Below are positions 3,397-22,477 of a stretch of DNA of 64,000 bases, one piece after another. Within the stretch, counting starts at the first letter, position 1. The number at the start of each line of letters is the position of its first letter. The position numbers and the translations under genes are program-made. This DNA is from Paenibacillus lycopersici (GTDB lineage Bacteria; Bacillota; Bacilli; Paenibacillales; Paenibacillaceae). Location: NCBI RefSeq assembly GCF_010119935.1, contig NZ_CP048209.1, forward strand, positions 2,793,001-2,857,000, written 5' to 3'. Below the pieces are notes generated by a model, which saw only the letters and a program-made list of their open reading frames with translations, had not been told where the DNA came from and made no database searches.

Positions 3397-3425
3397 ATTC
3401 CACGCATTGAGAGGAGCAATACCCA

Positions 3426-4271: not shown

Positions 4272-4290
4272 CCATAGGAGATGATTGTTC

Positions 4291-5445: not shown

Positions 5446-5450
5446 TGCAG

Positions 5451-5470
5451 GGCGGCTTCGGCCGCCTTCT
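5451..5470 (+). other. Stable RNA hairpin after the capsid gene
   Basis: A perfect 6-bp GGCGGC / GCCGCC stem carries a TTCG loop and is followed by TTCT rather than a full T tract. It starts 5 bases after the capsid stop. It could protect the 3' end of the capsid message or act as a partial terminator that lowers expression of the genes behind it; this is inference. Confidence 0.55.
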
Positions 5471-5485
5471 GAAAGGGTGGAACAG

Positions 5486-6087: not shown

Positions 6088-6133
6088 CGATTTGCACAAA
6101 GTACTCTATAAGTAAATCGATAGGAGGATTAAC

Positions 6134-6379: not shown

Positions 6380-6398
6380 TATACCGCACTCATTTACG

Positions 6399-6429
6399 GG
6401 GCAGGGCATTCGATGTCCTGCCCTTTTTA
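6399..6429 (+). terminator. Rho-independent terminator
   Basis: The 7-bp stem GGGCAGG / CCTGCCC with an 11-base loop is followed by a run of five T residues. It ends the capsid transcription unit in front of the adaptor gene. Confidence 0.82.
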
Positions 6430-6448
6430 CGTTCGGAGGTGACGTAAT

Positions 6449-7033: not shown

Positions 7034-7040
7034 TCGAGCG

Positions 7041-8960
7041 ATGAGCATCGCCATCCAACATCCGCCGCGCATGCCAGACCCGCCGGAGCTGCGCTTAGGA
7101 GCCGACGCGAACCTGCTCATGTCTGGCGGGGTCAATTATAAGAAGGACCCGACACAAGTGCGCGACAACCAGTCGCCGTACATGGTCAATATGTTCGCGA
7201 TTGATCGCGGATCCATCCTTAATAAGCGCGACGGGCAGGCCTACGTGTACGCGTCGTCCCTCGGCGGCGGCGGCATCAACGGTGCTTATGAACGGCTGTA
7301 TCAGGGCGTGAAGGTCTTCGCCTGGGGCACGGCCATTTATACGCAGTCCGGCACGTCGGCGCCGGTCTCCATCATGAGCGGGCTCGCCAATGCGAAGGGG
7401 TCATTCTTCGCGTTCGGCGGGCTCCTCTATTATATCAATGGTACGAATTTCGTCGTGATCAGCGACACGCTGACGGCGGCTGCGGTGACGCCATATGTGC
7501 CGACGCTTCTGATCTCCACGACGCCGACCGGCAGCGGCACGCCATACGAACAGGCCAACCTGCTGACGCCATCGTTCAAGATAAGCTTCAGCGCGGACGG
7601 CGCGGCGACGAAATTCTACTTCCCGTTCACCGGCTTAGACGCGGCTGCTGTTACGGTCATGGTAAACGGTGCGGCGAAGACGGAGGGCACGCATTTCACC
7701 GTCAACCGCACGGCGACGCCGTATGCATACGTGGATTTCGCTGCCGGCACGTCGCCGACCGGTATCATCGCGACTGGCGCGCCGAACAACGTCATCGTCA
7801 CGGCGGCGAAGACGACGGCGGGTAACGAAGCCAAGGTCAAAAATTGCCGCTACGCAATCGATTACGGCGGCGACAACGACACGCGCGTCTTTCTGTGGGG
7901 GAATCCGAGCTATCCGAACCGCGCTATTCGCAGCGGGCTGATGGATCCGACATACTGGCCGGAGAATGAATTCTCGGACGTCGGCAGCGCCTCGGAACGG
8001 CTCGTCGCCTGCGCGAAGCATTACGACAAGCTCGTTTATCTGAAAGAACGAAGCCTGTATTTCACGACCTACACGAACCCTGTTACGCAGGGCTTCTGGG
8101 GCGCGAGTCAGATCGGCGCTTCGTTCCCGCTGTATCCGATCAATAGCGCCGTCGGCTGCGACATGCCGGGAAGCGTGCAGATCATCGACAATAACATCGT
8201 GTTTGGGAATTCGGACTTGGGATTGTTCATCCTTCTGTCCACGCAGGTAAAGGACGAGCGAGACGTGCGCCCAATCAGCGGCAACATTAACGGCGCGCCG
8301 ACGCGTCCGGGCCTGCTCGATCTGAGCGTTTCCGACCTGCAGGCGGCTTCCAGCGTTGACTTTGACGGCCGGTACTGGCTGTGCGTCGGCAATCAGGCTT
8401 TCGTGTGGGATTATCGGCTTTCTCCATTCGCAGATACCGGCGATGTGGCGGCGGACGAGGATCGGCTGTCGTGGTTTCCGCAGACCAATATTAAAGCGAG
8501 CTGCTGGATTCAAGATGACCGCGCGCTCTATTATGGCGACCGAACAACAGGCAGAGTCGTAACCTTTCAGCCAAATTACAACGACTTCGGGCAGCCGATC
8601 CCGGCCGTGTGGCAGACGAAGCGCTTCAGCTTCGGTTTGCCCGATTGGCTTAAGACAATTAAAAAGGCTTGGTTTACATCCAAGGCAGGCGGCTATTCGA
8701 CCGTTAACATCAAGTACATCACGGAAAAGGGAGAAAAGGCTGACAGCGAGGATGTGAATGTAAATTCGTTTCGTTGGAACACGGCTACCTGGGCGACGTG
8801 GACGTGGGCAGTCAATGAGTACCCGCCGCCGGAGCGGATCAAACCGAAAATGAAGAAGGTCGTGTACTTCCAAATTGAGTTCAGCAATGGCAATTTGAAT
8901 CAGAACTTGTCTTTGATGAGCTTGGTTATTCAATACATGGTTGTGAAAAAGGTGAAGTAG
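7041..8960 (+). CDS. Tail structural protein (beta-propeller or hub-like), short-tailed phage type
   Basis: The 639-residue protein begins with a GGVNYKKDPTQVRDNQSPYMVN segment (16 residues in) and a following LNKRDGQAYVY. This 'N-Q-S-P ... N ... K-R-x-G' opening is typical of large tail proteins of podoviruses and related phages that form the tail hub or stabiliser below the adaptor. The body consists of repeated short beta segments, such as KHYDKLVYLKERSLYF and GRYWLCVGNQAFVWDYR, resembling propeller blades. Base composition turns AT-richer from about 8640 and stays so through the next gene, pointing to a recombination joint inside this gene. The exact family is not established. Confidence 0.62.
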   Translation: MSIAIQHPPRMPDPPELRLGADANLLMSGGVNYKKDPTQVRDNQSPYMVNMFAIDRGSILNKRDGQAYVYASSLGGGGINGAYERLYQGVKVFAWGTAIYTQSGTSAPVSIMSGLANAKGSFFAFGGLLYYINGTNFVVISDTLTAAAVTPYVPTLLISTTPTGSGTPYEQANLLTPSFKISFSADGAATKFYFPFTGLDAAAVTVMVNGAAKTEGTHFTVNRTATPYAYVDFAAGTSPTGIIATGAPNNVIVTAAKTTAGNEAKVKNCRYAIDYGGDNDTRVFLWGNPSYPNRAIRSGLMDPTYWPENEFSDVGSASERLVACAKHYDKLVYLKERSLYFTTYTNPVTQGFWGASQIGASFPLYPINSAVGCDMPGSVQIIDNNIVFGNSDLGLFILLSTQVKDERDVRPISGNINGAPTRPGLLDLSVSDLQAASSVDFDGRYWLCVGNQAFVWDYRLSPFADTGDVAADEDRLSWFPQTNIKASCWIQDDRALYYGDRTTGRVVTFQPNYNDFGQPIPAVWQTKRFSFGLPDWLKTIKKAWFTSKAGGYSTVNIKYITEKGEKADSEDVNVNSFRWNTATWATWTWAVNEYPPPERIKPKMKKVVYFQIEFSNGNLNQNLSLMSLVIQYMVVKKVK

Positions 8961-8972
8961 GGGAGGGATTCG

Positions 8973-10094
8973 ATGCCTTTAACATTTACGCCGCCAGACG
9001 GTTACCGTAATAAAACGAGTTTTCCAACAACGCCGACAAGTGAAGATGCATTTCGAGATTCAATGCAGAGTTTGCTTGACCAAATGCGAGATTACATCAA
9101 TAACAATTTGGCGTTAACTGCCGGCCCGACAATGGGGTTAAGTCGCCAAGCGATAATTAATGGCAATTTTAACATTTGGCAAAGGGGTACGAGCTTCACG
9201 AGTTTGAACGGATTTTCAGCAGACCGATGGTCGATTCAGTACGATGGAACATTGACGGCAGATGTTACGCGCCGTTCCTTTGCTCCTGGACAGACGGAAG
9301 TTCCGAATGAACCGAATTACTGCCTGCGAATTACGGTAACAAATGCAGGCACAGGTACACGAGTAGGTATTTCGCAGCGAATTGAAGACGTCCGAACATT
9401 TGCGGGAAAAAAAGTGACGCATACGTTTTGGATCAGATCGAATCGAGCTGGACTCAACGTACGAAGGGACATCTTTATCCAAAACTTCGGGAGTGCCGGA
9501 AGTACGCAAGTATCAGTAACGACAGGGCAGGCAGAAACGCTGGCCGCAAATGTATGGACGCCGATCACCATCACCTCTACGATACCAAGTATTGCAGGGA
9601 AGACGGTGGGCGATAACAGTTATTTATCCTTTGAAGTCCGCTGCTTAAACCCACAAACGGGTGACGTGATCGACATTGCCCAAGTGTCATTGAACGAAGG
9701 GAGTGCAGCACTGCCATTCCAAGCGCGCAATATCGCCGATGAACTGGCGTTGTGCTTGCGGTATTACGAAAAAAGCTATGCGTATGGAACAGTGCCGGGA
9801 ACCGCAGTCAGTAACGGATGCGTGCAATCCACATCGTTGTCATCGTTCCTGCTTTCGCGAAATGATGTCGGATTTCGGGTTAACAAGCGAGTACAGCCGA
9901 CAATGACGATCTATAGCACTCAAAATGGGGCGGTGGGATCCTCGACAGAAATCACTTCAAGTGGGACGTTTGTAGCGGATCGAGTTGTAACTACGACGGC
10001 AGTAGAATCTTCGTTCTCCGTAGGTGGAGCCGCAGGCAATTTCACGGCGAATAACTTCCAGCGGTTCCATTGGACCGCGGATGCAGAATTGTAA
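8973..10094 (+). CDS. Phage tail fibre or receptor-binding protein
   Basis: The 373-residue protein carries IINGNFNIWQRGTSF followed by FSADRW, the opening of a carbohydrate-binding-like jelly-roll domain widely found in phage fibres. A jelly-roll-like middle (KKVTHTFWIRSNRAG, SYLSFEVRCLN) and a C-terminal head ending in ADAEL follow. The first 50 residues, with TPTSEDAFRDSMQSLLDQMR, are a short helical base-plate-proximal domain. Codon use is clearly AT-richer than in the structural genes on either side, as expected for host-range cassettes exchanged between phages. GGGGAGGG lies upstream of the start. Confidence 0.78.
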   Translation: MPLTFTPPDGYRNKTSFPTTPTSEDAFRDSMQSLLDQMRDYINNNLALTAGPTMGLSRQAIINGNFNIWQRGTSFTSLNGFSADRWSIQYDGTLTADVTRRSFAPGQTEVPNEPNYCLRITVTNAGTGTRVGISQRIEDVRTFAGKKVTHTFWIRSNRAGLNVRRDIFIQNFGSAGSTQVSVTTGQAETLAANVWTPITITSTIPSIAGKTVGDNSYLSFEVRCLNPQTGDVIDIAQVSLNEGSAALPFQARNIADELALCLRYYEKSYAYGTVPGTAVSNGCVQSTSLSSFLLSRNDVGFRVNKRVQPTMTIYSTQNGAVGSSTEITSSGTFVADRVVTTTAVESSFSVGGAAGNFTANNFQRFHWTADAEL

Positions 10095-10106
10095 AGGGGG
10101 ATCGTC

Positions 10107-10412
10107 ATGGCGAACCACTATGAAAGAACCAACGAAGCCGGGGTGATTATCCTCGGCTTTTCTGATGCCTTCGTTCAGCCATTGGAGACCGATACTCTCG
10201 TTGCCGAAGACGCGGAACGGCATTATAACCCCGTGCTCACAAACGGGCGAGGGCAATTTCTTTACCGCCGGACGAACGGCCAACGCGTCGAGCGTACGCA
10301 GGAAGAGCTTGATGCTGAATGGGCAGCGCGGCCGCCCGATCCACCGACCGCAGAAGAGCGGCTTGCCGCAACCGAACAAGCACTGCTTGCGATCATGGAG
10401 GCGATGAGCTGA
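10107..10412 (+). CDS. Fibre-associated phage protein (XkdW-like position)
   Basis: This 101-residue protein follows the fibre gene and precedes an XkdX-like gene, the same order seen around fibre loci of many Gram-positive phages. The N-terminal half is compact; the C-terminal part, with PPDPPTAEERLAATEQALLA, is a proline hinge followed by an amphipathic helix typical of this class, which may form a trimeric coil. AAAGGGGGATCGTC precedes the ATG. Its stop codon overlaps the next start (TGATG). Confidence 0.66.
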   Translation: MANHYERTNEAGVIILGFSDAFVQPLETDTLVAEDAERHYNPVLTNGRGQFLYRRTNGQRVERTQEELDAEWAARPPDPPTAEERLAATEQALLAIMEAMS

Positions 10413-10543
10413 TGTACGATTTCATCTTAACCCAGTGGATCATGCGTAAGATTGATGCCGCCAAAGTCATCAGCTACGCCCCGAAATGGATTACGGTCGA
10501 ACAGGCGGAAGTGATCGTGGGGACACCGCAAATTGAATCGTAA
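10412..10543 (+). CDS. XkdX family protein
   Basis: This 43-residue protein has the XkdX layout: an aromatic N-terminus (YDFILTQWIMRK), a short helix and a closing WITVEQAEVIVG segment like the 'I-T-x-E-Q-x-x-x-I-x-G' end of the family. XkdX proteins are tiny products encoded just behind fibre genes of PBSX-like and other Gram-positive phages; their role is unknown. The start overlaps the preceding stop, implying coupled translation. Confidence 0.68.
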   Translation: MYDFILTQWIMRKIDAAKVISYAPKWITVEQAEVIVGTPQIES

Positions 10544-10555
10544 AACTTTACAAAT

Positions 10556-10566
10556 TGTGCTAGTAT
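10556..10566 (+). promoter_or_regulatory. Candidate extended -10 promoter for a small accessory unit
   Basis: TGC-TAGTAT forms an extended -10 (TGn followed by a 4/6 match to TATAAT) 29 bases before the next ATG. No convincing -35 is present at the right spacing, which is tolerated for extended -10 promoters. It sits after the XkdX-like gene and before two small AT-rich genes that end at their own terminator. Confidence 0.35.
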
Positions 10567-10594
10567 GGGGTTATCCTACTACTGAGGTGATTCT

Positions 10595-10783
10595 ATGAAG
10601 TGTTCAAAGTGCAACGCAGAATTACTTGCACCGCTAAACACATGCACGAGTTGTCACGAAGTTGAACTTCGTATCAGCGCCCCTTCGAACTTTGCAAAAC
10701 CTATAGTCAATGCTGTGCTGAACTGGAGTCCGTATGATACAGATAACTCAGCAAACCGTTGGGCCGCGGATGCAGAAATGTAG
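10595..10783 (+). CDS. Small zinc-ribbon protein with a fibre-like C-terminal tail
   Basis: This 62-residue protein opens with CSKC and, 12 residues later, CTSC: two CxxC knuckles that would bind one zinc ion in a ribbon. The last residues, NRWAADAEM, resemble the end of the fibre protein upstream (FHWTADAEL), and the DNA shares the stretch CCGCGGATGCAGAA at both stops. This looks like the 3' end of a former fibre gene now joined to an unrelated ribbon. CTGAGGTG precedes the ATG. Function is unknown. The gene is AT-richer than its neighbours. Confidence 0.55.
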   Translation: MKCSKCNAELLAPLNTCTSCHEVELRISAPSNFAKPIVNAVLNWSPYDTDNSANRWAADAEM

Positions 10784-10795
10784 TAGGAGGAGACT

Positions 10796-10882
10796 ATGAA
10801 ACGGAAGATAGCTATCATCGCCACGTTTTCAAATTTCGCCAAACGTTCCAGTATACTTCAGAACGAATTGAATAAAATCTAG
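10796..10882 (+). CDS. 28-residue basic peptide
   Basis: The frame follows a very good Shine-Dalgarno (TAGGAGGAG, 4 bases before the ATG) and encodes a basic peptide beginning MKRKIAIIATFS. It could be a membrane-active or regulatory peptide, but no family is recognised. It ends 6 bases before a terminator. Support is the ribosome-binding site and the position inside a promoter-to-terminator unit; there is no protein-level evidence. Confidence 0.4.
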   Translation: MKRKIAIIATFSNFAKRSSILQNELNKI

Positions 10883-10888
10883 CAACGG

Positions 10889-10913
10889 GACGCTCTTAAT
10901 GGGCGTCTTTTTT
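10889..10913 (+). terminator. Rho-independent terminator
   Basis: GACGC / GCGTC pairs around a 9-base loop and is followed by six T residues. It closes the small accessory unit before the ejection-type protein gene. Confidence 0.75.
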
Positions 10914-10936
10914 GTTGCATTCAGAAGGAGATGCTT

Positions 10937-13570
10937 ATGGCGAGCTTACTTACGAAAGACCCGGTGACGGGGCTGAACAAACTGCAGCAGGCGCAGATCG
11001 ATGCGCGGAAAGCGACGGGTCAGCCTTTGCCGTCATATGCGACACCAGCACCTGCACCGACTCCTACGCCTGCTCCAACTCCGGCTCCGGTTCCGGCAAC
11101 TCCAACTGCTCCGAAGCCTGCTTCAACGCCAGCGACCACGTCAAATACATTAACCGCCGAACAGCAGGCGGCCATAATTAACAGTTTGACTTCCGCTTCG
11201 TCGAAGGCGATGTTGAATTCTGGTCTTGCAAGCGACCCTGTGACGGGGCTGAATAAGCCTCAGACCACTCAGCAGGCCAACCAAGCGATCGCTGCAGCTG
11301 GAGGCACTCCGGCGTATGTGGCGCAGGTTCAGGCAGCTTCTAATAATTATGGCGGGACAGGCAATCCGCTTAATGAAATCTTGTACAGTAAGCAGCAGTA
11401 CGACGCCGGAAATAAAGCGTGGGCAACACAAAACGCAGCTGGTTACTATGACAAGCTTGATCCAGCCGAAGCAGCGGCAGTCCGGAACATGAGCGCGCAG
11501 CAATTGATGAACTACATTAATAGCAAAAACGCGCCAGCGCAGCAGCCGTCGAGCGCCTCTGTCGCCAACCAAACTTCGCCATCAAGTAATATTAATGCAC
11601 CTACAACACAAGTAGCACCGCCTGCAGCGACGACGCAGAAGCCATCACCAACGCCGACAACTCCAGCAGCTCCAGCAGCTCCAGCAGCTCCAGCCGCGAC
11701 GCCAGGCTATCAATCCACGTACAACGGTCCTGACATGGCAGCGATGCAGGCACAGCTTAATTCGCAGTACGATCAAGCGCAGGCGGCTCAGCTCCAGAAG
11801 CTTCGGGATGCATTAGCGACGGCGATGCAAGGGTACAACGCTCAGGAGACACAGGCGAACCAGTCCGCTTACACAAACCGCAACGCCGCGGACGTAACGA
11901 ACATGCAAAATTCGCAGGCGCTTCGAGAGATGATGGCGAACATGGGGTTGGGCGGCGACGGCCAGAATCTGACGCTGCAGACGGCACAAGGTGCTTCCCG
12001 GTTGGGAGCTATTAACGACATTAACCAGACGCAGGCTAATGCGCTGCAGGACATCTCGCAGAAGCGTTCTCTGCTGCAAAACAACGAGGCGGCGAACGAA
12101 CTCGCGCTTATTCAGCAGCTCGGTTCCGACAAGGCGGCGGCGCTGCTCGATCTGCTTAAGTACGGCGATCAGCAATCGTTCAACGTCGATCAGGCGAAAT
12201 ACGGCCGTTATCGCGACGACATCAATCAGCAGTTCGCGCAGGATCAGTTCAGCTGGCAACAGCAGACGGATCTCGCCAATCTGCTCGGAACGATTAATGG
12301 GCAGCGCACGCTCGCCGGTCAAGCCCAAGACTGGGGGAAACAGGTCGATACGGCAAATCTGCTGGGCTATCTCAATGGTCAGCAGACACTCGCGTCGCAG
12401 AACCAAGCGTTTAACCAGCAGATGTCGCTGGCGGATCTGATGGGCACGTATAACGGGCAGCAAACACTTGCCGGCCAGCAACAAGCGCTTGCCAACAAGA
12501 ATGCCAATTGGGGCGCCTATATGGACATCGTCAATCAAACAGGCAACCTGGGCGCCGGCCCGTCGCAGAATTGGGGCAGTCTGGTTAATAATGCAAACTC
12601 CGGCTCCCAGACGATGGCCGGGCAGAACCAGCAGTACAATCAAAATATGCAACAGGAACAATTCAAGTATCAGAAGGCGCGCGACACGATCTCGGATAAG
12701 CAATGGCAACAGAAGTTTGATGAGGACGTGCGGCAGTATGGCTTGAATTACGGATTGCAGCAGTTGCAGCTTAATAACGATGAGGCGTATCGCAAGGCGC
12801 AGCTAGCGCTCAGCCAGGACGACAACGACCGTCAATGGGCATCGCTTGACGCGCAGCTCAGCGGAACGGCCGATCAGGCGAAGGCGGTTTCTGGAGACGT
12901 GGCAGGTAATATCCTTGCCCAGTCACTGCAGAAGGTGGTTGGTACAGATCCGGTGTCGGGCAAACCGGTATACGGCACAATTTCCGATCCTACAGCCCGA
13001 GAGAAAGCGTTCATCGACGCATGGAATACCTCCGGCGTTGCTCCGGGGGCAGATACGGTCACGATGCTCTCGAAGGCGGGTTACACTGCCCAGGAAATCG
13101 CGAATCTGAAGAGTAAATACCCCGTGGCTTTTAATTCAGGGGGGCCGTCAGGCGGGAACGGTTCCCCCGCGAACGTATCAGTACCGCTTCGTTATCAGGA
13201 GATGCTGTCGGCGAGCAATAGCAAATATGGGCTTCCGGATGGCTTGCTGGCAGCCGTTGCAAACAAGGAGAGCAGTTTCAATCCATCAGCAAAGAACAGT
13301 AAGAGTGGCGCGGCTGGCATGTTCCAGTTCATGCCGGCGACGGCCAAGGGATACGGCATCGATCCTATGGATCCGCGACAATCGGCGGACGCGGCGGGTA
13401 AGATGCTGTCTGGTCTGGCCGCCAAGTACGATGGCGATTATTCCAAGGCGCTGGCCGCGTACAACTGGGGCGGTGGGAACGTCGATAAGGCCATCAAGGT
13501 TTATGGCGCGAACTGGTTGAGCCACGCGCCGGCTGAGACGCAGAAATACGTAAGTGAAATCCTCGGATAG
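10937..13570 (+). CDS. Virion ejection-type protein with C-terminal lytic transglycosylase domain
   Basis: The 877-residue protein probably enters the cell wall with the phage DNA. The C-terminal 115 residues form an SLT-type lysozyme-like domain: catalytic Glu778 in NKESSF, then SGAAGMFQFMPATA and ALAAYNWGGGNVDKA, all standard for lytic transglycosylases. The N-terminal 120 residues are Pro/Ala/Thr-rich and contain a duplicated DPVTGLNK element. The centre is very rich in Gln and Asn with 26-residue repeats. No signal peptide is present. The ATG at 10937 has AAGGAG 6 bases before it, better than the ATG two codons earlier. Like T7 gp16, it lies with large internal-type proteins between fibre and lysis genes. 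Confidence 0.78.
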   Translation: MASLLTKDPVTGLNKLQQAQIDARKATGQPLPSYATPAPAPTPTPAPTPAPVPATPTAPKPASTPATTSNTLTAEQQAAIINSLTSASSKAMLNSGLASDPVTGLNKPQTTQQANQAIAAAGGTPAYVAQVQAASNNYGGTGNPLNEILYSKQQYDAGNKAWATQNAAGYYDKLDPAEAAAVRNMSAQQLMNYINSKNAPAQQPSSASVANQTSPSSNINAPTTQVAPPAATTQKPSPTPTTPAAPAAPAAPAATPGYQSTYNGPDMAAMQAQLNSQYDQAQAAQLQKLRDALATAMQGYNAQETQANQSAYTNRNAADVTNMQNSQALREMMANMGLGGDGQNLTLQTAQGASRLGAINDINQTQANALQDISQKRSLLQNNEAANELALIQQLGSDKAAALLDLLKYGDQQSFNVDQAKYGRYRDDINQQFAQDQFSWQQQTDLANLLGTINGQRTLAGQAQDWGKQVDTANLLGYLNGQQTLASQNQAFNQQMSLADLMGTYNGQQTLAGQQQALANKNANWGAYMDIVNQTGNLGAGPSQNWGSLVNNANSGSQTMAGQNQQYNQNMQQEQFKYQKARDTISDKQWQQKFDEDVRQYGLNYGLQQLQLNNDEAYRKAQLALSQDDNDRQWASLDAQLSGTADQAKAVSGDVAGNILAQSLQKVVGTDPVSGKPVYGTISDPTAREKAFIDAWNTSGVAPGADTVTMLSKAGYTAQEIANLKSKYPVAFNSGGPSGGNGSPANVSVPLRYQEMLSASNSKYGLPDGLLAAVANKESSFNPSAKNSKSGAAGMFQFMPATAKGYGIDPMDPRQSADAAGKMLSGLAAKYDGDYSKALAAYNWGGGNVDKAIKVYGANWLSHAPAETQKYVSEILG
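12281..12514 (+). repeat. Three 78-bp in-frame repeats in the ejection-type protein
   Basis: Units beginning at 12281, 12359 and 12437 encode the degenerate 26-residue motif L-(L/M)-G-x-x-N-G-Q-x-T-L-A-x-Q. The regular 26-residue spacing suggests a repeated helical or coiled element; it is a protein repeat, not a mobile one. Confidence 0.75.
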
Positions 13571-13581
13571 AGGTGAAAGAC

Positions 13582-16500
13582 ATGGCACAACGACCGGTAT
13601 TGAAATATCGGGGAGAAGATGATGATCATAAAAAACGGGGACAGGATGCGCGTGAGCGTGTCCTTTCTCGCGTTTACGGGGGAGACGACAGCGGCGGAAC
13701 GACCGTTCCTTCACGACCCGTATTGAAATACATCGGTCCGCCTGATCCCTTGCCGTCATCCTTCAGCGGCGATCCGCGCACGTCCATGCTCAACGTGCCG
13801 AACGCGATTGAGAGCTTTCAGGAGCGGCATACGACGCCTGACTTCATGCAGGCCAAGCCGGATGCCAGACCAGGTAGCTTCGAAGCGATTCAGGACTTTC
13901 AGCGGAACGCCCCTGTTCCTGCGCCGGCATCGGCCAAGCAACAGTTCTACGAGCAGGAGGCGGCGGCACGAGACAAGCAGCTTGCGGGCGCGCCTGGCTT
14001 CATCCGCAAACCATTGGAATTCATTGGCCATGGGCTGGACGTCGTTCAGGCGAACATCCCCGGGCTTGCTGACTTCCAGCAGGGCGCAGCGAAGACATTG
14101 GGCGTGGAGGCGGAAACGGCTCCGTCTACCAGCGGTCTACTCGGTCGAGCGGCGAACATCGCCGGTCAATTCGCCGGCGGCGCGGTTAACCCTGCTGCGC
14201 TGGAGCAGAGCGTCGCTACAGGGGCTGATCGTATCGCTACTGGCGCGCTTCAGCGATTTGCGCCGAGTGCGAATCCGTTCGTACAGCGGCTGGCCGGCAA
14301 CGCCGTCGAGGGCGCAGCACAGAACGTGGCAAATACAGCGGCGACGGGGCGGACCTCTGCTCGAGATTTAGCGGAGGCTGCGGCACTGGGCGGACTGGGC
14401 GGCGCGGCGTTCGAGGCGGCGGGGACTGGGCTTGGGCGACTTGGGAAAGTACTTCACACACGATTTAAGCGTGCCGGTATCGACGAGCCTGAACAGAAAG
14501 TTCAGGAGATTCTTGCATTACCGCTTGGTCGGGAGGATGCGGCTAAGGCGAGGGGGCAACTCCCCCCAGGAACAGAGCCAATCGTCACTCCCTACACGCC
14601 AGAGCCGCTCGGGTTGCCGGCTCCGCGTAATGATGCATCGACCACGGCCCGCGTCACGCGCAAGGCAAATCCGTTCCGAGAGCAATTCGAAGACTTGATC
14701 GCCCACGCGCAGCGCTTACAGGATGAAGGCCGATTCACTCCCGGCCGCGAGGATCAGGATCTGGATAATCTTTGGGCATCGATGGCCGGCAGAGATGCCC
14801 CGAGCCTAGACGAGCTGATCCAGCTTGCCTACCCAACGGGGAAACCGATTGACCCGGATCTGGTTCGACGTGCTCGAAATTACCAAACTTCCCGCCAGGC
14901 GGCCGGCGTTCCGCTGCCGGTCAAGTCCGCGTCGGATCGAATGGCACCGCAAGGCGTGCTTGGAACAGTCGACGCGCCTGTCACAGTGCCGGCCCGGCCG
15001 AAGTTGGAGTATAAGGAAGCCGCTCCTCCTACGGAAGCGCTGGCAGAGCCGAATGCGTCAAGTGATGTAGAGGGCCTCGTTCGTCAATATCATGATGCCG
15101 AGCGCATCCTGCAGGAGATCGACGCAAAATATTCAGCTAATCCAGCGGCTTCGATGGAACCGAAGGACTATCAGGCAATGGCTGAGGCAATGAGCGCCCG
15201 GTCGGAGGCAGCCGAACGCATTCAGAAGATGAACAACGGGCCGGCAGAGCTGCCCGATGGTGTTCAAGGCCGGGCGGCTGCCGGCGTCAGGGAAACGAGC
15301 TTCGGGGCGCGCGAATCCGCTGTCACCGCGGCGCCGCCGGAGCCACCATCGGACACACAGGCGCTGTTCGGGCGCAAGTCGCAGTCGAGCGGCGGACAGG
15401 CGGCGGGAAATTCTGCGAAGACGATCTCACAGACAGCACTCACGAGTAGCTTCCGCAAAAATCTCGGTTTGACGATCGATACTGGGCGCATGGGTGTGCC
15501 GAAGTCTCAGGTCGCCGGCATCTATAAGGTGCATCCCGAGGTTATCCGCACTGGGACTCAAGGCGAATATGAAACGTTATCTCACGAAGCAGGTCATCAT
15601 TTTACGAAGAAGTTTAGCTTGAAGAGCGATCCTTCGCTAGAGAGCGAGCTCACGCAGATGATGGACACGCAGAACGTCCACGACTACAAGCAATATCCGC
15701 AGAATCAATGGTTCGATGAGGGGATTGCGGAGTATTTCCGCACACTTCTCTCCGAGCCTGCACAGGCGCGGCAGCTCGCCCCGAGGTTTTCGGCGTTCCT
15801 GGAATCCGAGCTGCCGTCCAAGCTGCAGGCGGGCATTCAAGCCGTTCAGCGGGACGTGAAGACGTGGTTGGAACAGGGCGATTATAACCGCGCGCAGGGA
15901 AAGCTTGATTTTGAGAGCGGCGGGAAGAAGAAGAAATTCAACTGGAATCGCTTCTACACGACAATGGTGGATGATCTTCATCCCCTCGCGATGTTTGAGA
16001 AAGCATTGACGGGGACAATCGCGCAAGGTAAGAAGTCGATCTACAAGATGGCCCGTCTGAGCCGCGGCGTCGCAGAGAGGGCGAAACTGGCGGTAACAAG
16101 TGGCATCTACGATGATAATGGTCGAAAGCTGAGCAATGGTTTGCGAAGCATTGTCCGACCGCTCGAGAAGATCGGCATGAGCGAGAAAGACCTATCGACG
16201 TACTTAGCTGTGAAGCATGCGGTAGACTTGCGACGCATGGGGAAGGAGACGCCGTTCACGCCGGACGAGATGGCCGAAGTGCTGAACCGTTGGGACGCCG
16301 ATCCGACGGTGCAGAAAGTCCATCGACAGATCATGAAGTACAACAACGCGCTGCTGGACATCCTCCAGCAGGCCGGCATCGTCTCGCGGCAGTCCGTTCG
16401 GGAGATGCGCCAGAAGTATCCGAACTATGTCCCATTCCTCCGGCATTTCGATGATGATGAGCTGGCGGGCTTTAAGGGAGGAGCGCTTGGAGGGGCGAAG

Positions 16501-18360
16501 GCATTCGCCAATATCACGACTCCGATTCGCAAAATGAGCGAAGAAGGTTCGGATCGGACAATCATCAATCCGCTGGAGTCGATGATTCAGAACACCTTCC
16601 GCGCTATGGATGCAGTGGCTCAGAACAAAGTTGGCCTGAATCTCGCGGAACTGGCGAAGGTGGAAGGCGCGGGCGCATGGGTGGAGGCGGTACCTGGGCA
16701 GAAATCGGCGAAGGAACATATCGTCGATGTTTATCAGGACGGCAAGAAGCAGGCATATAAGATTCGAGATCCGGACTTGTATAGCGCCCTCCTGTCACTA
16801 GATCGCGAATCGACGAATGCGGTTATCAAATTCCTCGGTGGCGCTGCCGGTATGCTACGCGGCGGGGCGACGCTGACGCCGGAATTCATTGTTCGGAACG
16901 CCTTCCGCGACGTGGCGAGCGCGATCATCAACAGCTCGAAGTACGGGTTTAACCCGATCGACTTCTTCAAAGGCCTGTTTCATGTTGTGGGTAAGTCGGA
17001 CGTGTTCGACAAGTTCATGAGCTCCGGCGGCGCCATGTCCACCATGATGGCGCTCGACCGCGATGCGAACCGCGAAGCAATGGAAATGGTGTTCCGACGG
17101 AGTATGAAAGACAAGGCCATGAACGTCGTTACGAGTCCAGCCGAGCTGGCGAAGTGGTTGTCGTTGTATCGGCCAGCGCAGAAAACGATCGGTATGTTGA
17201 GGCATGGTGCGGAAATTTCGGAGCTCAGTACAAAAGTAGGGAAAGCAAATCGTGTGTTCAAAAAAACTGGAGACTGGGATGAAGCGGCCTATCAAGCTCG
17301 AGACCTGATGGACTTCAACCGAGCAGGTAGCTCAATCCGACAAGCTAACCGCGCAGTCGCCTTCTTGAATGCATCCATCCAAGGCACGGACAAGATGGTT
17401 CGCTCGTTCAAGGAAAATCCGGCCTCGTTCATGACACGCGCATTTACGACGATGGTTCTGCCGGCCGCGGCGGCGTACTTCTGGAACCGGTATCGTTTGT
17501 CTGATGAAGAGCGAGAAACGTACAAGAACATCCCTCAGTACCAGAAGGACAACTTTCTCATCCTCGGCATCCCAGGCACGGGAAGATTCGTCCGGATCCC
17601 GAAGCCGTTCGAGACGGGCATGCTGTTCGCAACGTCGACGGAGCGCATGTTGGACTGGCTGCATGACAACGACAAGCAGGCCTTCGACGATTATGGGCGG
17701 GCGACATTGCAATCGTTCACGCCGCCAATGATGTTCACCGCGCTTGCGCCGCTGCTGGAAGGCATCACAAACTATTCATTCTTCCGCGACGCGCCGATCG
17801 TGCCGCAGGGTGAGCAACGGTTCGAGAAGAAGGACCAGTACGGCGTCTATACGAGCGAAGTAGCGAAGGATATCGGCAAGTTCCTGGACACGATCGGCGT
17901 GGGCAATTCAAACTTCGCGAGCCCGCGAGTCATTGATAACACGATTCAGGGGTACACGGCCGGGCTCGGTGGTTACGGCGTCGACCTAGCGGACGCGGGA
18001 ATTAAGGCGGCCACGGGGCGGAAGACGACGCCGCTGCCGGCAAAAGAATGGAGCGAGCAGCCGGTGTTGCGCTCTTTCTTCGCCAGTACGGCGGGCGGAG
18101 GCCAAGTGCGGGACGACTTCTATGACAAATGGGAGAAGCTCAGCAAGAAGAAGGAGTCGGCCGAATTCAACGAACAGCCATTCAAAGATCAGAAGGAATT
18201 CTATCAAATGAAACCCTATCAGAAGGAGATTGCGGCTTTGCAGAAGCGGTACAAGGCCATTCTGCAAGATAAAAAGCTGAAATCGGACGCCAAACGCTCG
18301 CAGTTGGATGCGCTCGATGCTAGAATGAATGCAGCAGCGAAAAAAGCGCTTGGAAGGTAG
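13582..18360 (+). CDS. Giant polyvalent virion protein with zincin motif and LPD38-like region
   Basis: The 1592-residue protein is the largest in the window. The N-terminal half (1 to about 640) is low-complexity with short RPVLKY-type repeats and Ala/Gly-rich helices that could insert in membranes. A metallopeptidase-like site follows: H668-E669-A-G-H672 with acidic partners in WFDEGIAEYF (D712, E713). The region from about 760 to 1400, with KYPNYVPFLRHF and FIVRNAFRDVASAIINSSKYG, resembles the LPD38 'large polyvalent protein' domain of phages. The last 60 residues are a charged helix. ATG 13582 follows AGAGGTG. Such proteins in short-tailed phages are thought to be ejected with the genome; that role is inferred here. 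Confidence 0.72.
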   Translation: MAQRPVLKYRGEDDDHKKRGQDARERVLSRVYGGDDSGGTTVPSRPVLKYIGPPDPLPSSFSGDPRTSMLNVPNAIESFQERHTTPDFMQAKPDARPGSFEAIQDFQRNAPVPAPASAKQQFYEQEAAARDKQLAGAPGFIRKPLEFIGHGLDVVQANIPGLADFQQGAAKTLGVEAETAPSTSGLLGRAANIAGQFAGGAVNPAALEQSVATGADRIATGALQRFAPSANPFVQRLAGNAVEGAAQNVANTAATGRTSARDLAEAAALGGLGGAAFEAAGTGLGRLGKVLHTRFKRAGIDEPEQKVQEILALPLGREDAAKARGQLPPGTEPIVTPYTPEPLGLPAPRNDASTTARVTRKANPFREQFEDLIAHAQRLQDEGRFTPGREDQDLDNLWASMAGRDAPSLDELIQLAYPTGKPIDPDLVRRARNYQTSRQAAGVPLPVKSASDRMAPQGVLGTVDAPVTVPARPKLEYKEAAPPTEALAEPNASSDVEGLVRQYHDAERILQEIDAKYSANPAASMEPKDYQAMAEAMSARSEAAERIQKMNNGPAELPDGVQGRAAAGVRETSFGARESAVTAAPPEPPSDTQALFGRKSQSSGGQAAGNSAKTISQTALTSSFRKNLGLTIDTGRMGVPKSQVAGIYKVHPEVIRTGTQGEYETLSHEAGHHFTKKFSLKSDPSLESELTQMMDTQNVHDYKQYPQNQWFDEGIAEYFRTLLSEPAQARQLAPRFSAFLESELPSKLQAGIQAVQRDVKTWLEQGDYNRAQGKLDFESGGKKKKFNWNRFYTTMVDDLHPLAMFEKALTGTIAQGKKSIYKMARLSRGVAERAKLAVTSGIYDDNGRKLSNGLRSIVRPLEKIGMSEKDLSTYLAVKHAVDLRRMGKETPFTPDEMAEVLNRWDADPTVQKVHRQIMKYNNALLDILQQAGIVSRQSVREMRQKYPNYVPFLRHFDDDELAGFKGGALGGAKAFANITTPIRKMSEEGSDRTIINPLESMIQNTFRAMDAVAQNKVGLNLAELAKVEGAGAWVEAVPGQKSAKEHIVDVYQDGKKQAYKIRDPDLYSALLSLDRESTNAVIKFLGGAAGMLRGGATLTPEFIVRNAFRDVASAIINSSKYGFNPIDFFKGLFHVVGKSDVFDKFMSSGGAMSTMMALDRDANREAMEMVFRRSMKDKAMNVVTSPAELAKWLSLYRPAQKTIGMLRHGAEISELSTKVGKANRVFKKTGDWDEAAYQARDLMDFNRAGSSIRQANRAVAFLNASIQGTDKMVRSFKENPASFMTRAFTTMVLPAAAAYFWNRYRLSDEERETYKNIPQYQKDNFLILGIPGTGRFVRIPKPFETGMLFATSTERMLDWLHDNDKQAFDDYGRATLQSFTPPMMFTALAPLLEGITNYSFFRDAPIVPQGEQRFEKKDQYGVYTSEVAKDIGKFLDTIGVGNSNFASPRVIDNTIQGYTAGLGGYGVDLADAGIKAATGRKTTPLPAKEWSEQPVLRSFFASTAGGGQVRDDFYDKWEKLSKKKESAEFNEQPFKDQKEFYQMKPYQKEIAALQKRYKAILQDKKLKSDAKRSQLDALDARMNAAAKKALGR

Positions 18361-18367
18361 GCGGAGA

Positions 18368-18511
18368 ATGAGCCAACGAGCAGGCACCGTCCTCATTGTC
18401 ATTATTATCATCCTGTTGAACCTATACTTCATGAGCAGCGGCCACGGCGGCCGCGGGCAAGACTACTACGAAACGCAAACGGATGCCGATTACATGAATG
18501 AGTCCCCATGA
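18368..18511 (+). CDS. Small single-pass membrane protein, possible lysis accessory
   Basis: This 47-residue protein has one clear membrane helix (TVLIVIIIILLNLYFM) after a 6-residue basic N-terminus, then a Gly-rich and acidic tail (GHGGRGQDYYETQTD). It starts 7 bases after the giant protein and directly precedes the lysis region, so a holin-like, antiholin or spanin-like role is possible. The 3' end of the gene forms the left arm of the terminator that follows. Confidence 0.6.
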   Translation: MSQRAGTVLIVIIIILLNLYFMSSGHGGRGQDYYETQTDADYMNESP

Positions 18512-18526
18512 CGGGGGCTCATTTTC
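18498..18526 (+). terminator. Rho-independent terminator overlapping the end of the small membrane gene
   Basis: GAGTCCCC / GGGGGCTC (one G-T pair) closes on an ATGAC-type loop and is followed by ATTTT. The left arm includes the last codons of the preceding gene. Confidence 0.72.
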
Positions 18527-18548
18527 CTTTTTTCGGAAGGAGCCGAAC

Positions 18549-18770
18549 ATGCTGGAAATGGACGAAAGCGAATATTCCGAGTCAGATTTCTCCGACGACA
18601 TGCTCCGGCAGATCGCCGGCGTATGCGGGCCCCGGACGGCACAGGCGTTGCTGCTTCCGGGGCCCGTTCCTGTATCCGGGGCGCCGGCGGCGCGGCCGGG
18701 GGTGAAGCGCAGATGTACGACTTGGTTCTTGAAATGGCGCACGCGGTCTGGAAGAACGGGCTCTCGTTAA
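18549..18770 (+). CDS. Small phage protein of unknown function
   Basis: This 73-residue product starts after TCGGAAGGAG. The first 25 residues are very acidic (ESEYSESDFSDDM), the middle is Pro/Ala-rich and the end is basic. The last 58 bases overlap the next start (18713) in another frame, so the true C-terminus is less secure. No family is recognised. It belongs to the lysis region by position. Confidence 0.48.
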   Translation: MLEMDESEYSESDFSDDMLRQIAGVCGPRTAQALLLPGPVPVSGAPAARPGVKRRCTTWFLKWRTRSGRTGSR

Positions 18771-19504
18771 GCGCGCTTGGAACGGCGGTGTACGTGCTGC
18801 TCAAACAGCGGAAGGTGAAGCGTGCGCTGCGGCGCCTGCTGCCCTGGCTGCTGGAAGACGACAGCGACATCAAGCCATACATCGCGAATCAACTCATCAT
18901 CATGGAAAATCAGCGGCGCGCCTTGGCCGCGTTAGGGGTGGAAGCGGTATGCCCGCAAAATGCAGTTACCTCGCCGACATCGAGCGGCTTTCTGCGCGCT
19001 CTCAGAACGTTCTTTACTTATTCTTGGCTGGGACGATCGCCTGCCCGCGATGCAGCCGGCCGAAACAGCCAGTCTATCACGCACTCAACTATATCGAATC
19101 GGAGGAAAAAACAGATGAAGAAATGGCTTAAAGCGGACTCATTGACGGTAATTGGCGGCGCGCTGGCTGCGGCGGTGTCGCGGTATTTCGGGGTGGAGAT
19201 CGACCCAGCCAACATTTTGGCGGCGGCGATCCTGCTGCTCGGGTATTTCAAGGCGCATGAATACGTGACGGTCGTGCGTGGCGCGAACGGCCTGCCGACG
19301 GGCTTCAGCGTCAACAGCCGGAAATTCATTTTCACGGCCATCGCGTTCGGCCTGATCGTCGCCGACGAGCTGCTGAAGCTCAACCTCAGCAATGAGCTGA
19401 TCATAACGATCACGGCGGCGGTGACGGGATACAACTACACGGAAGGCACGAAGGACGCCAAGCAAGCGGAGCAGGAGGGCGCGGACGCCCGGCAGACGCA
19501 CTAG
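18713..19504 (+). CDS. Long form of the holin reading frame (in-frame N-terminal extension)
   Basis: A start with GGGGGTGAAG upstream opens a frame that runs without a stop into the holin gene, giving a potential 263-residue product. The extension contains one weak hydrophobic stretch (LSLSALGTAVYVLLK) followed by a strongly basic segment (KRALRRLL) and a long helix. Residues from about 80 to 134 look less protein-like, and an alternative frame with its own start at 18949 overlaps this part. It may therefore be a short upstream gene that has lost its stop, or a genuine long form. Only the first 75 residues look convincing. Confidence 0.45.
   Translation: MYDLVLEMAHAVWKNGLSLSALGTAVYVLLKQRKVKRALRRLLPWLLEDDSDIKPYIANQLIIMENQRRALAALGVEAVCPQNAVTSPTSSGFLRALRTFFTYSWLGRSPARDAAGRNSQSITHSTISNRRKKQMKKWLKADSLTVIGGALAAAVSRYFGVEIDPANILAAAILLLGYFKAHEYVTVVRGANGLPTGFSVNSRKFIFTAIAFGLIVADELLKLNLSNELIITITAAVTGYNYTEGTKDAKQAEQEGADARQTH
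19115..19504 (+). CDS. Phage holin (predicted)
   Basis: The 129-residue protein has two to three hydrophobic helices (SLTVIGGALAAAVSRYFG, ILAAAILLLGYFKA, FIFTAIAFGLIVADELL and LIITITAAVTGY) and a charged, Gln/Glu-rich C-terminal tail. That is a holin layout, the pore former that times release of the endolysin. Its own Shine-Dalgarno (GGAGG at 19101-19105) lies 9 bases before the ATG, supporting this internal start in the longer frame. The amidase gene begins 11 bases after its stop. The amidase lacks a signal peptide and would need such a holin. Confidence 0.75.
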   Translation: MKKWLKADSLTVIGGALAAAVSRYFGVEIDPANILAAAILLLGYFKAHEYVTVVRGANGLPTGFSVNSRKFIFTAIAFGLIVADELLKLNLSNELIITITAAVTGYNYTEGTKDAKQAEQEGADARQTH

Positions 19505-19515
19505 GGGGAATCGAC

Positions 19516-20406
19516 ATGATCAACATGACATGGCTGGGCGACAAAGTGCCCAATTACGGCAGCCGGGTACGGAACGGGAAGACATATACGCCGATCGTTA
19601 TCGTCAATCATATCTCGGCTGGCACGCTCAGTAGCATGGACAACTGGTTCCGCAACCCGGCCGCTGAGGCGTCTTCACATTTCGGCATTGGTCGCGACGG
19701 GACAATCCATCAGTACGTACGCTTGGAGAATGCGGCTTGGACGCAGGGCCTGACGGCGGATGCTATTCCTCGTGCGACGGCGCCAATCATCCGGCAGATG
19801 GGCGTCAATCCGAATTTGTATTGTATTTCGAAGGAGCATGAAGGATATGGTAGTAATGGTGGAGATGGAACATTAACAGAACCACAATTCTGGGCGAGCG
19901 TTTGGTTGGATAAATATATACAAAGTGAAGTCGAAAGAAATTGGAGATATCGTATCATCTTTGGGCCGCAAACTGTCATAGGACACTTCCAGGTTGACCC
20001 GATTCGTAAGCCGTTCTGCCCGGGGCCGGCTTTCCCATGGGCGCGCACGTATAGCGAGCTTGCGATAGCGGAGAACATGGACCTGGACCATTACGAAGAG
20101 CGCGTGCATTATATGATGGATGATGCGAGCAAATACGCTGAAGCCTTCGCGGTGGTCGAGCGAATCAAGGACCTGGGAGGCAAGCTGACGGATCTGAAAT
20201 GGGGTGCGTCCGCGGAGATGAAGCTGCTGTGGCTCGCGCCGCTGCTGCCGTCGATCAATTACCAGGGCGACGTGACCGCCGCCGGAATCGCGGAACGCGT
20301 CCTCGAGTTGGGGGATACCGCAATGGGCGCCGGCACGTGGCAGATGGAGGCTGTACGGAAGCTGCTGCTGTTATTCCCGCTGATGAGAGAAAAAGGCCTG
20401 CTCTGA
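19516..20406 (+). CDS. N-acetylmuramoyl-L-alanine amidase, phage endolysin
   Basis: The 296-residue enzyme cleaves the bond between muramic acid and the peptide stem of peptidoglycan to release phage. The N-terminal Amidase_2 domain has likely zinc ligands His32 (IVNHIS), His157 (GHFQVDP) and Cys168 (PFCPGP), plus SSHFGIGRDGTIHQYV and SKEHEGYG. The C-terminal 100 residues are helical and of unknown type, possibly wall-binding. There is no signal peptide, fitting holin-dependent export. A patch of roughly 150 bases near 19820-19970 inside the catalytic domain is much more AT-rich than the rest, suggesting intragenic recombination. The stop codon lies in the following terminator. Confidence 0.88.
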   Translation: MINMTWLGDKVPNYGSRVRNGKTYTPIVIVNHISAGTLSSMDNWFRNPAAEASSHFGIGRDGTIHQYVRLENAAWTQGLTADAIPRATAPIIRQMGVNPNLYCISKEHEGYGSNGGDGTLTEPQFWASVWLDKYIQSEVERNWRYRIIFGPQTVIGHFQVDPIRKPFCPGPAFPWARTYSELAIAENMDLDHYEERVHYMMDDASKYAEAFAVVERIKDLGGKLTDLKWGASAEMKLLWLAPLLPSINYQGDVTAAGIAERVLELGDTAMGAGTWQMEAVRKLLLLFPLMREKGLL

Positions 20407-20426
20407 TTTTCGGAGCAGGCTTTTTT
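20396..20426. terminator. Bidirectional rho-independent terminator
   Basis: GCCTGCTC / GAGCAGGC forms a perfect 8-bp stem. Six T residues follow on the plus strand, and five A residues precede it, giving a T tract on the minus strand. It separates the plus-strand lysis genes from the convergent minus-strand gene. Confidence 0.88.
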
Positions 20427-20429
20427 GCG

Positions 20430-20756
20430 TTATTTGGCTTTATCGATTTTGTGTTCAAGCGTGCGCGCCACAATGCCGAGATGCAGATCCAAATCAGTCT
20501 GCGACACTTCGCGTTCGGCGCGGCGACCGTGCAGCGAATAGAGATAGCGCCGATCTCGAACGGGCACCTCAGAAACCCACATGCCATTCGCCTTCATGTT
20601 TCGCTTTGACCTCTCCACTTCAGATACGATGAGGCTCCCGACAACCTTGACGATCGCCTGCGTCACGCCCTTCGTTTCCTCCATCTTCTCTTTCGCGCTC
20701 TCGAGTGCAGTAAGCATCGCCACATGAACATTCAACGCAATAATCGGATCGTACAT
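20430..20756 (-). CDS. SOS-promoter prophage protein of unknown function
   Basis: The 108-residue protein has a helical first half (ALESAKEKMEETKGVTQAI) and a charged C-terminus, no membrane segment and no recognised motif. It stands alone between the amidase gene and the regulator gene. Its promoter carries a LexA-type box in the spacer, so expression on DNA damage is predicted. Such a gene could be an antirepressor, an induction trigger or a host-takeover protein; nothing in the sequence decides among these. An AAGGA stretch lies upstream of the ATG. Confidence 0.68.
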   Translation of the reverse strand: MYDPIIALNVHVAMLTALESAKEKMEETKGVTQAIVKVVGSLIVSEVERSKRNMKANGMWVSEVPVRDRRYLYSLHGRRAEREVSQTDLDLHLGIVARTLEHKIDKAK

Positions 20757-20789
20757 AGCTCATCATTCCTTCGAAGTGTGTTTACCCGT

Positions 20790-20819
20790 ATTATACGCGA
20801 ACGAGTGTTCTTATATCAA
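20790..20819 (-). promoter_or_regulatory. Sigma-A promoter with LexA (SOS) box in the spacer
   Basis: On the minus strand TTGATA (20814-20819) and a perfect TATAAT (20790-20795) are 18 bases apart. The spacer carries CGAACGAGTGTTCT (20798-20811), which matches the Gram-positive LexA consensus CGAACRNRYGTTYC at 13 of 14 positions. The -35 overlaps the stop of the upstream regulator gene. Confidence 0.82.
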
Positions 20820-21232
20820 GATAGGCAATCGTCCAGGACTGTGAGGAGTTCCATCAATAAAAGAATGACATTATTATTAGAAGGAAGACGTTTATCCGAC
20901 TCCCAGTTGTGAATGCTTTTTACGTCTACATTCATCTCTCTGGCCAGTTCTGTTTTTGACAGCCCCCGATATAAGCGCGCCTTCTTGATCTTCTGTCCAA
21001 GCGTTTCCACCGGAAGCATTTCGAATTTCCCCAAATAACTAACCGGCTTCCCCAGCGCGGCGGAAATTCTCCGTAACACCGGCAAGCCCACGCCCGTCAC
21101 ATCCCGTTCGATCATGCTTAACCCTTCCGGCGTAAGAGAGCATTGTTCCGCTAGCTGCCGAATGGTCGCGCCCAGTTCTAAACGAGTTGAACGAATTCGT
21201 GCGCCAACGGTGTCTGGGCGATCAGAATTCAT
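20816..21232 (-). CDS. Prophage regulator with two helix-turn-helix domains (XRE type)
   Basis: The 138-residue protein has two Cro/C1-type helix-turn-helix units in tandem: IRQLAEQCSLTPEGLSMIE in the first half and SKTELAREMNVDVKSIHNWE in the second. It contains no peptidase or dimerisation domain of the LexA/CI type. It lies at the very end of the prophage beside host comM and is read in the same direction as comM. A repressor or excision-control role is plausible. The start is uncertain: ATG 21232 lacks a good Shine-Dalgarno, and TTG/GTG codons as far as 21283 are in frame and would add up to 17 residues. Confidence 0.76.
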   Translation of the reverse strand: MNSDRPDTVGARIRSTRLELGATIRQLAEQCSLTPEGLSMIERDVTGVGLPVLRRISAALGKPVSYLGKFEMLPVETLGQKIKKARLYRGLSKTELAREMNVDVKSIHNWESDKRLPSNNNVILLLMELLTVLDDCLS

Positions 21233-21293
21233 GGTTCTAAACGTCGATGGCAAGGCTTCCTTGCGCACTACTTGAAAATCCAAGGTATTATTC

Positions 21294-22376
21294 TCACGGG
21301 CATGGATTCATGCTTGCCGCAAGCAGGAAAGAGGCCGGGAACCGGAATACCGCCCGGGAGCGGGCGATCGTCACTTCCCGATCCTCGAGCGGCTGTCTGA
21401 GCACTTCGAGCGCCGCTCTGGAGAATTCGGGCAGCTCGTCGAGGAATAACACGCCTCGATGCGCAAGCGTCGCTTCCCCCGGCCGCGGAATGGAGCCTCC
21501 GCCAATAAGGCCGGCCGCCGATATCGTATGGTGCGGACTGCGAAATTGACGTTCTTGCATCAGGGACGGTATCCCGCCCGGCAGCTTGCCGGCCGCGCTG
21601 TAAATCTTGGTAACCTGCAGCGCTTCTTCCTCGCTGAGAGGCGGCATAATCCCGGGCAGCCGTTTCGCCAGCATCGTTTTGCCGGTTCCCGGCGGACCCG
21701 TCAACAGCACGTTATGATTGCCCGCAGCTGCGATGAGAAGCGCACGCTTGGCATGATGCTGACCGAGGACATCGCCATAATCGCCATGCGGCGTCCGATA
21801 GATATTCCCGGCGACGGCCTGACGAATTTCAGCATGAGCGTCATAACGCAGCGGCTCCCATGACTGCTCGGCGGATTTGGGTTCGCCAAGATCCCGCAAA
21901 TGCGCGGCCGCAAACAGCTCGATGCCCTCGATGCACGAAGCCTCGGCTGCGTTGGCGCGTGGGAGAAGCACCCTCGCGACGCCGCTCTGCTTCGCTTGTT
22001 CGACCATCGCCAGCACGCCGGGAACCGCCCGGATTTCGCCATTCAACGCAAGCTCCCCGAGCACGATAAAATGCTGAAACAGCTCGCTTCGAAGCTGACC
22101 GCTGGCGGCCAGTATCCCCGAGGCAATGGCCAAATCGAATGCCGTTCCTTCTTTCCGCAGGTCTGCGGGCGCCAAATTGACCGTAATGCGTTCCATCGGG
22201 AACGTGAATCCGCAATTTTTGACGGCGGCTCTTACGCGCTCCACCGATTCCCGCACCGCCGGATCGGGCAGACCGACCACGTTCACTTGCGGCAAGCCGT
22301 TCGAAATATCGACTTCCACCGCTATCATTCGACCTTCGACCCCGTAAACGCTGCCGCTGCAAATTCGAGTGTACAT
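21294..22376 (-). pseudogene. comM: comM (YifB family AAA+ helicase), truncated by the prophage
   Basis: ComM is a hexameric helicase that extends branch migration during natural transformation. The remaining 360 codons include the N-terminal Lon-protease-like domain ([18 protein letters not shown]) and the AAA+ Walker A site with Lys233 ([10 protein letters not shown]). The frame ends at AASMNPCP followed by a stop, where family members continue NPCPCG and roughly 130-140 more residues with the sensor and C-terminal domains. The stump should be inactive. GGAGGTG lies 9 bases before ATG 22376; an in-frame ATG at 22397 has no ribosome site. The 3' part must lie beyond the other prophage end. 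Confidence 0.9.
21295..21311. other. Prophage attachment junction inside comM
   Basis: Read on the minus strand, ATGAATCCATGCCCGTG is the conserved comM coding sequence for M-N-P-C-P-(C); after it, comM coding stops and an unrelated sequence with an immediate stop begins. This marks one prophage-host junction. The other copy of the core and the rest of comM should lie beyond the left edge of the window. The exact core length cannot be set from one side. Confidence 0.75.
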
Positions 22377-22385
22377 AACAAAAAA

Positions 22386-22411
22386 CACCTCCGCCATTTC
22401 GGCTGAAGGTG
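22386..22411 (-). promoter_or_regulatory. Terminator-like hairpin covering the comM ribosome-binding site
   Basis: On the minus strand CACCTTC pairs with GGAGGTG (one G-T pair), extended by GCC/GGC after a bulged A, with a GAAAT loop. Six T residues follow before the start codon. The right arm is the comM Shine-Dalgarno. The hairpin lies downstream of the comM promoter, so it can act as attenuator, translational lid or both. A small competing pairing in the leader (GAAG/CTTC) is also possible. Confidence 0.55.
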
Positions 22412-22444: not shown

Positions 22445-22477
22445 ATTATAATAGTGCACGTGCGAAGAAACTGTCAA
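22445..22477 (-). promoter_or_regulatory. comM promoter
   Basis: On the minus strand a perfect -35 TTGACA (22472-22477) is followed after 18 bases by TATTAT (22448-22453), which overlaps a perfect TATAAT three bases further on (22445-22450). It lies between the end of the DinB-type gene and comM. Confidence 0.7.

Follow-up and report, generated by a model that had tools for sequence, protein, structure and literature searches.

Integration of a temperate phage into the comM gene of Paenibacillus lycopersici would cut the phage's own integrase gene: comparison of integrated with free forms shows a conserved DNA-binding tail severed at the attachment site from a predicted large serine integrase whose known domains stay together. 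The explanation we favour, with a probability of about 0.55, places attP within the integrase ORF and regards the tail as a module of the integration stage that is lost on integration. The window, i.e. the whole stretch of DNA analysed (64,000 nucleotides), holds the right part of the prophage; the position of attP inside the integrase gene was not visible from the window alone. The relevant features of the window are as follows:

1..21294, no strand: right part of the 40.3-kb prophage (core positions; SU10-type portal and capsid, lysozyme-like SLT domain, amidase)
20816..21301, minus strand: HTH tail half, an open frame of 161 codons from core to stop with two XRE helix-turn-helix domains (ORF, Pfam, family comparison)
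21294..22397, minus strand: comM (yifB) 5' part, truncated at NPCP-TGA (ORF and Pfam ChlI / Mg_chelatase)
21295..21302, no strand: attR core, TGCCCGTG on the minus strand (identical 8 bp at attL, locus L006 1984-1991; comparison with related junctions)
21301-21302, no strand: proposed crossover dinucleotide within the attR core (comparison with related junctions)
22448..22477, minus strand: putative promoter-like site upstream of comM, TTGACA-18-TATTAT (pattern scan, 11/12 matches)

The sequence-only reading had placed the prophage exactly at the NPCPCG codons of comM, and this holds: the minus-strand comM frame reaches NPCP and then meets a stop at the attR core (21295-21302). The start of this ORF was set at 22397, with 22376 as an alternative ATG, and Pfam analysis of the 5' part returned ChlI and Mg_chelatase (positions 1-160 of 207). 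The missing 3' part, which that reading expected at the other prophage end, was located 40.3 kb to the left, outside the window, together with a large serine integrase; Mg_chelatase_C had its sole match in the single-contig 6.74 Mb genome at 2773545-2773826(-), 40 kb left of the comM 5' part (2814297-2815397(-)). No second, intact comM was found in the 6.74 Mb genome, since further matches to the 5' part were weak (E 2.8e-9 or worse, 27-35% identity). When the host flanks were joined at the core, an open 523-aa ComM frame resulted, with 87% identity to the intact ComM of a same-genus genome (G013), and recombination at the common core would thus rebuild comM exactly, in agreement with the earlier proposal that excision could restore the gene. 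Across 22 same-genus genomes, comM formed one open frame of 525-571 codons in 19; it is split at residue 367 in the source genome and elsewhere in G002 and G017. Among 394 genomes of the family, alignment in two pieces is not a reliable sign of a split comM, as at least one gene that is open over the gap (G025) aligns in this way. Four promoter-like sites were counted in the comM region versus a mean of 1.2 in shuffled sequences, by pattern alone, which is no evidence of function. By ORF reading, window 22502-28834 appears to carry a DinB-like gene, sucC, sucD, dprA and topA after comM.

The prophage measures 40,311 bp from core to core, and both junctions have the same 8 bp, TGCCCGTG in the comM sense. 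A short identical core at both junctions, with an attB rebuilt from the joined host flanks, is what a large serine integrase leaves behind. The core was located via comM alignment; a blind shared-word search of both ends failed to single out so short a core. Portal and major capsid proteins encoded at window 1113-5445 match SU10 families, and the phage is therefore probably podovirus-like. An ORF of 1595 aa lies inside the prophage at window 13573-18360, and the same prophage is represented in IMG/VR (UViG_2888578766_000001, integrase 100% identical).

The integrase ORF itself lies outside the window, on the minus strand of L006 from position 3664 leftwards toward attL, where its frame passes the core into ~50 host-coded codons. 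Resolvase (PF00239), Recombinase (PF07508) and zinc-ribbon (PF13408) domains follow each other in this order, all over cut-off, as predicted for a large serine integrase. All three fall at residues 22-387, and the core is reached at about residue 557. For the HTH half stranded at the other end, the closest solved structure in a profile comparison was SinR (E 4.4e-12), a likeness that fits DNA binding and points to no one role.

Free phages connect the two halves. Paenibacillus phage Harrison, a soil isolate (PMC6070908), encodes a 695-aa serine recombinase with the core inside its ORF, showing 53% identity to the prophage integrase over residues 7-527 and, in its C-terminal part, 39% identity to the prophage HTH over 123 positions. 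An HTH query against a phage collection returned nine records, of which the best three were Paisley and Harrison (two records), with the match lying within a 'serine recombinase' or 'integrase'. In Harrison and in six metagenomic loci belonging to three lineages, integrase and HTH form a single ORF of ~690 codons that contains the core. The six loci come from 56 viral loci analysed, 18 of which carry, in mid-contig and with no comM, an integrase whose frame is intact; the HTH is part of the integrase ORF in six of these (L088 = L036, L121 = L045, and the related L090-L093). It is absent in frame from the other 12: six are close relatives with short tails (L104, L111, L114, L115, L118, L120), L128 stops early, and the other five (L138, L140-L143) are more distant. 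On this count, the tail is dispensable in some phages and can be lost. An apparent HTH stretch in L104 had a worthless i-Evalue of 28, and this locus was not counted as fused. In L108, the contig ends at the HTH start. A search of viral contigs with the HTH only did not yield a confirmed relative.

Reading frame across the core was examined by comparing both ends of 22 prophages (17 plus five); the integrase was open to the core in 21, P. alvei being the exception. Prophage ends on separate contigs (e.g. those of P. alvei, Brevibacillus, Desulfoscipio and G235) were paired since each adjoins one comM half. Left out of the count were P. alvei, Cohnella lubricantis L021 and G735 (both on contigs that stop close to the core), loci L020, L035, L144 and L145, the prophage extracts among the 56 viral loci (integrase end alone examined) and the second integrase matches of G638 and G735. 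The comM alignment put the core 3, 3, 6 and 15 bases off on the HTH side of our own prophage and of P. macerans, the integrase side of G259 and the HTH side of Desulfoscipio, respectively; as these offsets are all multiples of three, phase was unchanged.

In every one of the 21 evaluable comM prophages, integrase and open HTH frame were in the same phase at the core. The shared phase was 2 in 18 prophages, 1 in two (Clostridium Ade.TY, G638) and 0 in one (G794), a shift in one half always being matched by the other; for Ade.TY, where BLAST missed the HTH, phase was taken from a 151-codon open frame. Core-to-HTH distances, measurable in 19 of 20 rows (17 prophages and three free forms), took six values (67, 82, 88, 91, 94 and 97 nt), all of them 1 mod 3. 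The two alternative frames on the HTH side were open for 140 codons in none of 40 cases. HTH dN/dS was 0.11-0.20 in five of nine pairs (the other four were saturated), values that are rough, with dS >1 in four of the five. Since the prophages are related, these frame counts are not independent trials. The att site is thus placed inside the integrase ORF directly in Harrison, L036, L045 and L090-L093, and by equal phase in the 21 prophages; the single ORF of the free forms and this equality of phase together lead us to conclude that integration separates the tail from a catalytically complete integrase.

The same insertion site recurs in other genomes. Nine of 13 genome loci from the integrase search adjoin comM at the core, namely four from Paenibacillus, one each from Brevibacillus, Marinithermofilum and a Desulfoscipio MAG, and two from Clostridium. 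The integrase was detected in 12 of 394 genomes of the family (E<=1e-100) and in 12 of 398 genomes drawn over the phylum (E<=1e-120), the source genome included. Within the phylum set, five genomes (G589, G558, G712, G638, G794) have the integrase adjoining comM; in G735, the contig ends after the integrase and comM pieces lie on other contigs; the remaining five matches, at 33-36% identity, lack a comM in the neighbouring ~1.4 kb. In P. alvei DSM 29 (L053 / L030), the frame of the comM-prophage integrase is broken upstream of the core, and the enzyme is therefore probably inactive. In G794, the phage frames coincide with the comM frame, so that the lysogen reads two fusion frames: the ComM 5' half with the HTH in one open frame of 563 codons, and the integrase with the comM 3' half in another of 698 codons (regions 3134078-3135586 and 3211646-3213694 of contig C1).

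Two further same-genus genomes, G002 (L147, C74:30700-48000) and G017 (L146, C1:3985300-3990700), have comM broken at the HNVL codons before Walker A by unrelated inserts with similar ends. The 16-kb L147 insert is satellite-like: besides genes for a serine recombinase and for phage capsid and portal, it has a RepA_N protein and a gene pair for type I restriction-modification; the 4.1-kb L146 insert has a DUF3800 protein, a weak deoxyribosyltransferase match and no recombinase among the listed ORFs. Rfam gave no match in either of these two inserts. This second comM site served as a control: the large serine recombinase of G002 terminates ~145 bp short of the junction (stop codon at 928 of L147, comM match ending at 777), and an ORF running through the att site is therefore no necessity for large serine recombinases, as judged from this one case.

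Serine integrases take their polarity from the central dinucleotide of the core. The integrase faces the comM 3' half in 14 of the 22 prophages (type A) and the 5' half in eight (type B). In several phages, the attP core reads CACGGNTGYCCGTG for type A and CACGGACAACCGTG for type B, one near-palindrome with TG or CA at its centre; for prophages, the attP core was deduced from its two halves. In a tree of 26 integrase sequences, where the eight free phages were labelled by core letters and not by comM junction, the orientation label changes five times, four of the changes being forced by well supported branches; G235 (type B) and G296 (type A) are sisters with full support. At sequence level, prophage orientation tracks the core dinucleotide, apparently with repeated changes.

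According to the favoured explanation, a temperate phage has integrated through its large serine integrase at the 8-bp core in the NPC codons of comM. The sequences show that in this phage family attP sits in the integrase ORF, between the catalytic and DNA-binding domains on one side and a conserved tail of ~150 residues with two XRE domains on the other, so that integration swaps this tail for an unrelated host-coded stretch and strands the HTH half at the opposite prophage end. Unintegrated (circular) phage DNA would then be the sole source of the full Int-HTH protein, and a lysogen would make only the tail-less enzyme. As an integration-stage module, the tail might either restrain the reverse reaction or repress early phage or int transcription; with the tail discarded by integration, the lysogen-made enzyme would be the excision form, and a single excision event would bring back both comM and the Int-HTH ORF. 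An integration-stage role is the most likely one for the HTH tail, given that it lacks a conserved start of its own. More tentatively, and at somewhat below even odds, recombination may act as a toggle between Int-HTH on circular DNA as the integration form and Int alone in the lysogen as the excision form, amounting to a self-editing integrase. The host-coded integrase tails were also considered as a functional part and ruled out by their length, which ranges from 4 to 170 residues in 16 prophages with an intact frame.

The severed HTH could instead be the lysogen repressor, expressed in type A from the comM promoter and held as an integrase tail in the free phage, so that immunity would depend on integration. 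We consider this unlikely. In the source prophage, comM and the promoter-like site both lie upstream of the HTH half, in-frame TTG, GTG and ATG codons occur ahead of the first helix, and a stand-alone HTH product is accordingly possible; the XRE domains, moreover, resemble SinR as well as phage repressors, and integration of mycobacteriophage BPs at attP alters its repressor product (PMC4557955). An in-frame start of this kind is available in 13 of 20 HTH halves, the source prophage included, but ATG, GTG and TTG are all absent before the first helix in the other seven, and candidate starts match AGGAGG at no more than 4 of 6 positions. In type B (8/22), the HTH is adjacent to the comM 3' half and directed away from it, so that the comM promoter cannot serve there, and a separate CI-like repressor gene exists in the prophage (L006 5822-6316). 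Less probable again is an incidental fusion of neighbouring genes, their frame and linker being kept only by shared ancestry and the DNA constraint of an attP arm. The codons that directly follow the core do overlap a conserved DNA stretch (agataa) resembling an attP arm, and some free relatives do without the HTH; however, phases 1 and 0 are found in both halves together, core-HTH indels are all multiples of three, and the seven HTH halves mentioned above are untranslatable alone from a usual start.

Listeria carries a serine recombinase prophage in a com gene, comK, which undergoes regulated excision, and the sequence-only reading extended this logic to comM. A reversible comM switch regulating competence would suit the exact, in-frame empty site and the presence of dprA four genes from comM (ORF reading). 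We nevertheless regard it as very improbable: comM is not comK, and two same-genus genomes have comM broken elsewhere by other elements. Related prophages break comM at the same codons in either orientation, which is what would be expected of a conserved codon block that simply serves as attB. The role in transformation of Firmicutes is, moreover, assigned to RadA in the accessible text of a study in EMBO J. that describes ComM as the canonical transformation helicase of Gram-negative bacteria (PMC11612176), and the parallel with comK is not supported.

Judging from the accessible portions of the published reports, the systems closest in logic are the attP-in-repressor arrangement of BPs and the suicidal integrases of archaea. 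In BPs, attP likewise sits within a phage ORF whose protein product is altered by integration, but the gene cut is a repressor whose short form is active, whereas here an integrase loses a whole DNA-binding domain (PMC4557955). Archaeal integrases of the SSV type also have their own att site in the integrase gene, which is split on integration, and integrases of this sort are termed exclusively archaeal in the accessible part of a review (PMC8371274); they are, however, tyrosine recombinases described there as inactive in two pieces, whereas the serine integrase described here retains every one of its Pfam domains. Artificial serine integrase-RDF fusions similarly link a second domain to the integrase C-terminus, and their authors envisage reassembly of a split gene (PMC5737554). 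Those proteins are engineered with an RDF as partner, whereas a natural double-XRE module takes that place here, in a gene that recombination itself splits. Phage WO sr1 of Wolbachia offers a parallel in its insertion, since a serine recombinase prophage interrupts a magnesium chelatase gene and has XRE regulators at its opposite end (PMC9203015); no integrase-HTH fusion or attP in the integrase gene is described in the accessible text, and WO sr1 is set apart by description only. A serine integrase with attP inside its own ORF was not found in the literature searched, a body of work that most subscription journals lie outside. According to the accessible part of a survey of large serine recombinases (PMC10083194), a later selection kept only enzymes of 400-650 aa; proteins of ~690 aa would therefore have dropped out.

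Taken at the strength given above, these data would point to a self-cutting integrase family spread across several Bacillota lineages, belonging to another recombinase class than the archaeal one and with its catalytic domains kept. The occurrence of sister phages with opposite core dinucleotides makes prophage polarity testable. If the tail steers the reaction, the fused and tail-less forms would constitute ready-made natural pairs for the question of what sets the direction of serine integrases. If the integrase is indeed self-editing, it would possess a built-in latch for direction or timing, while orientation would be free to flip via the core dinucleotide.
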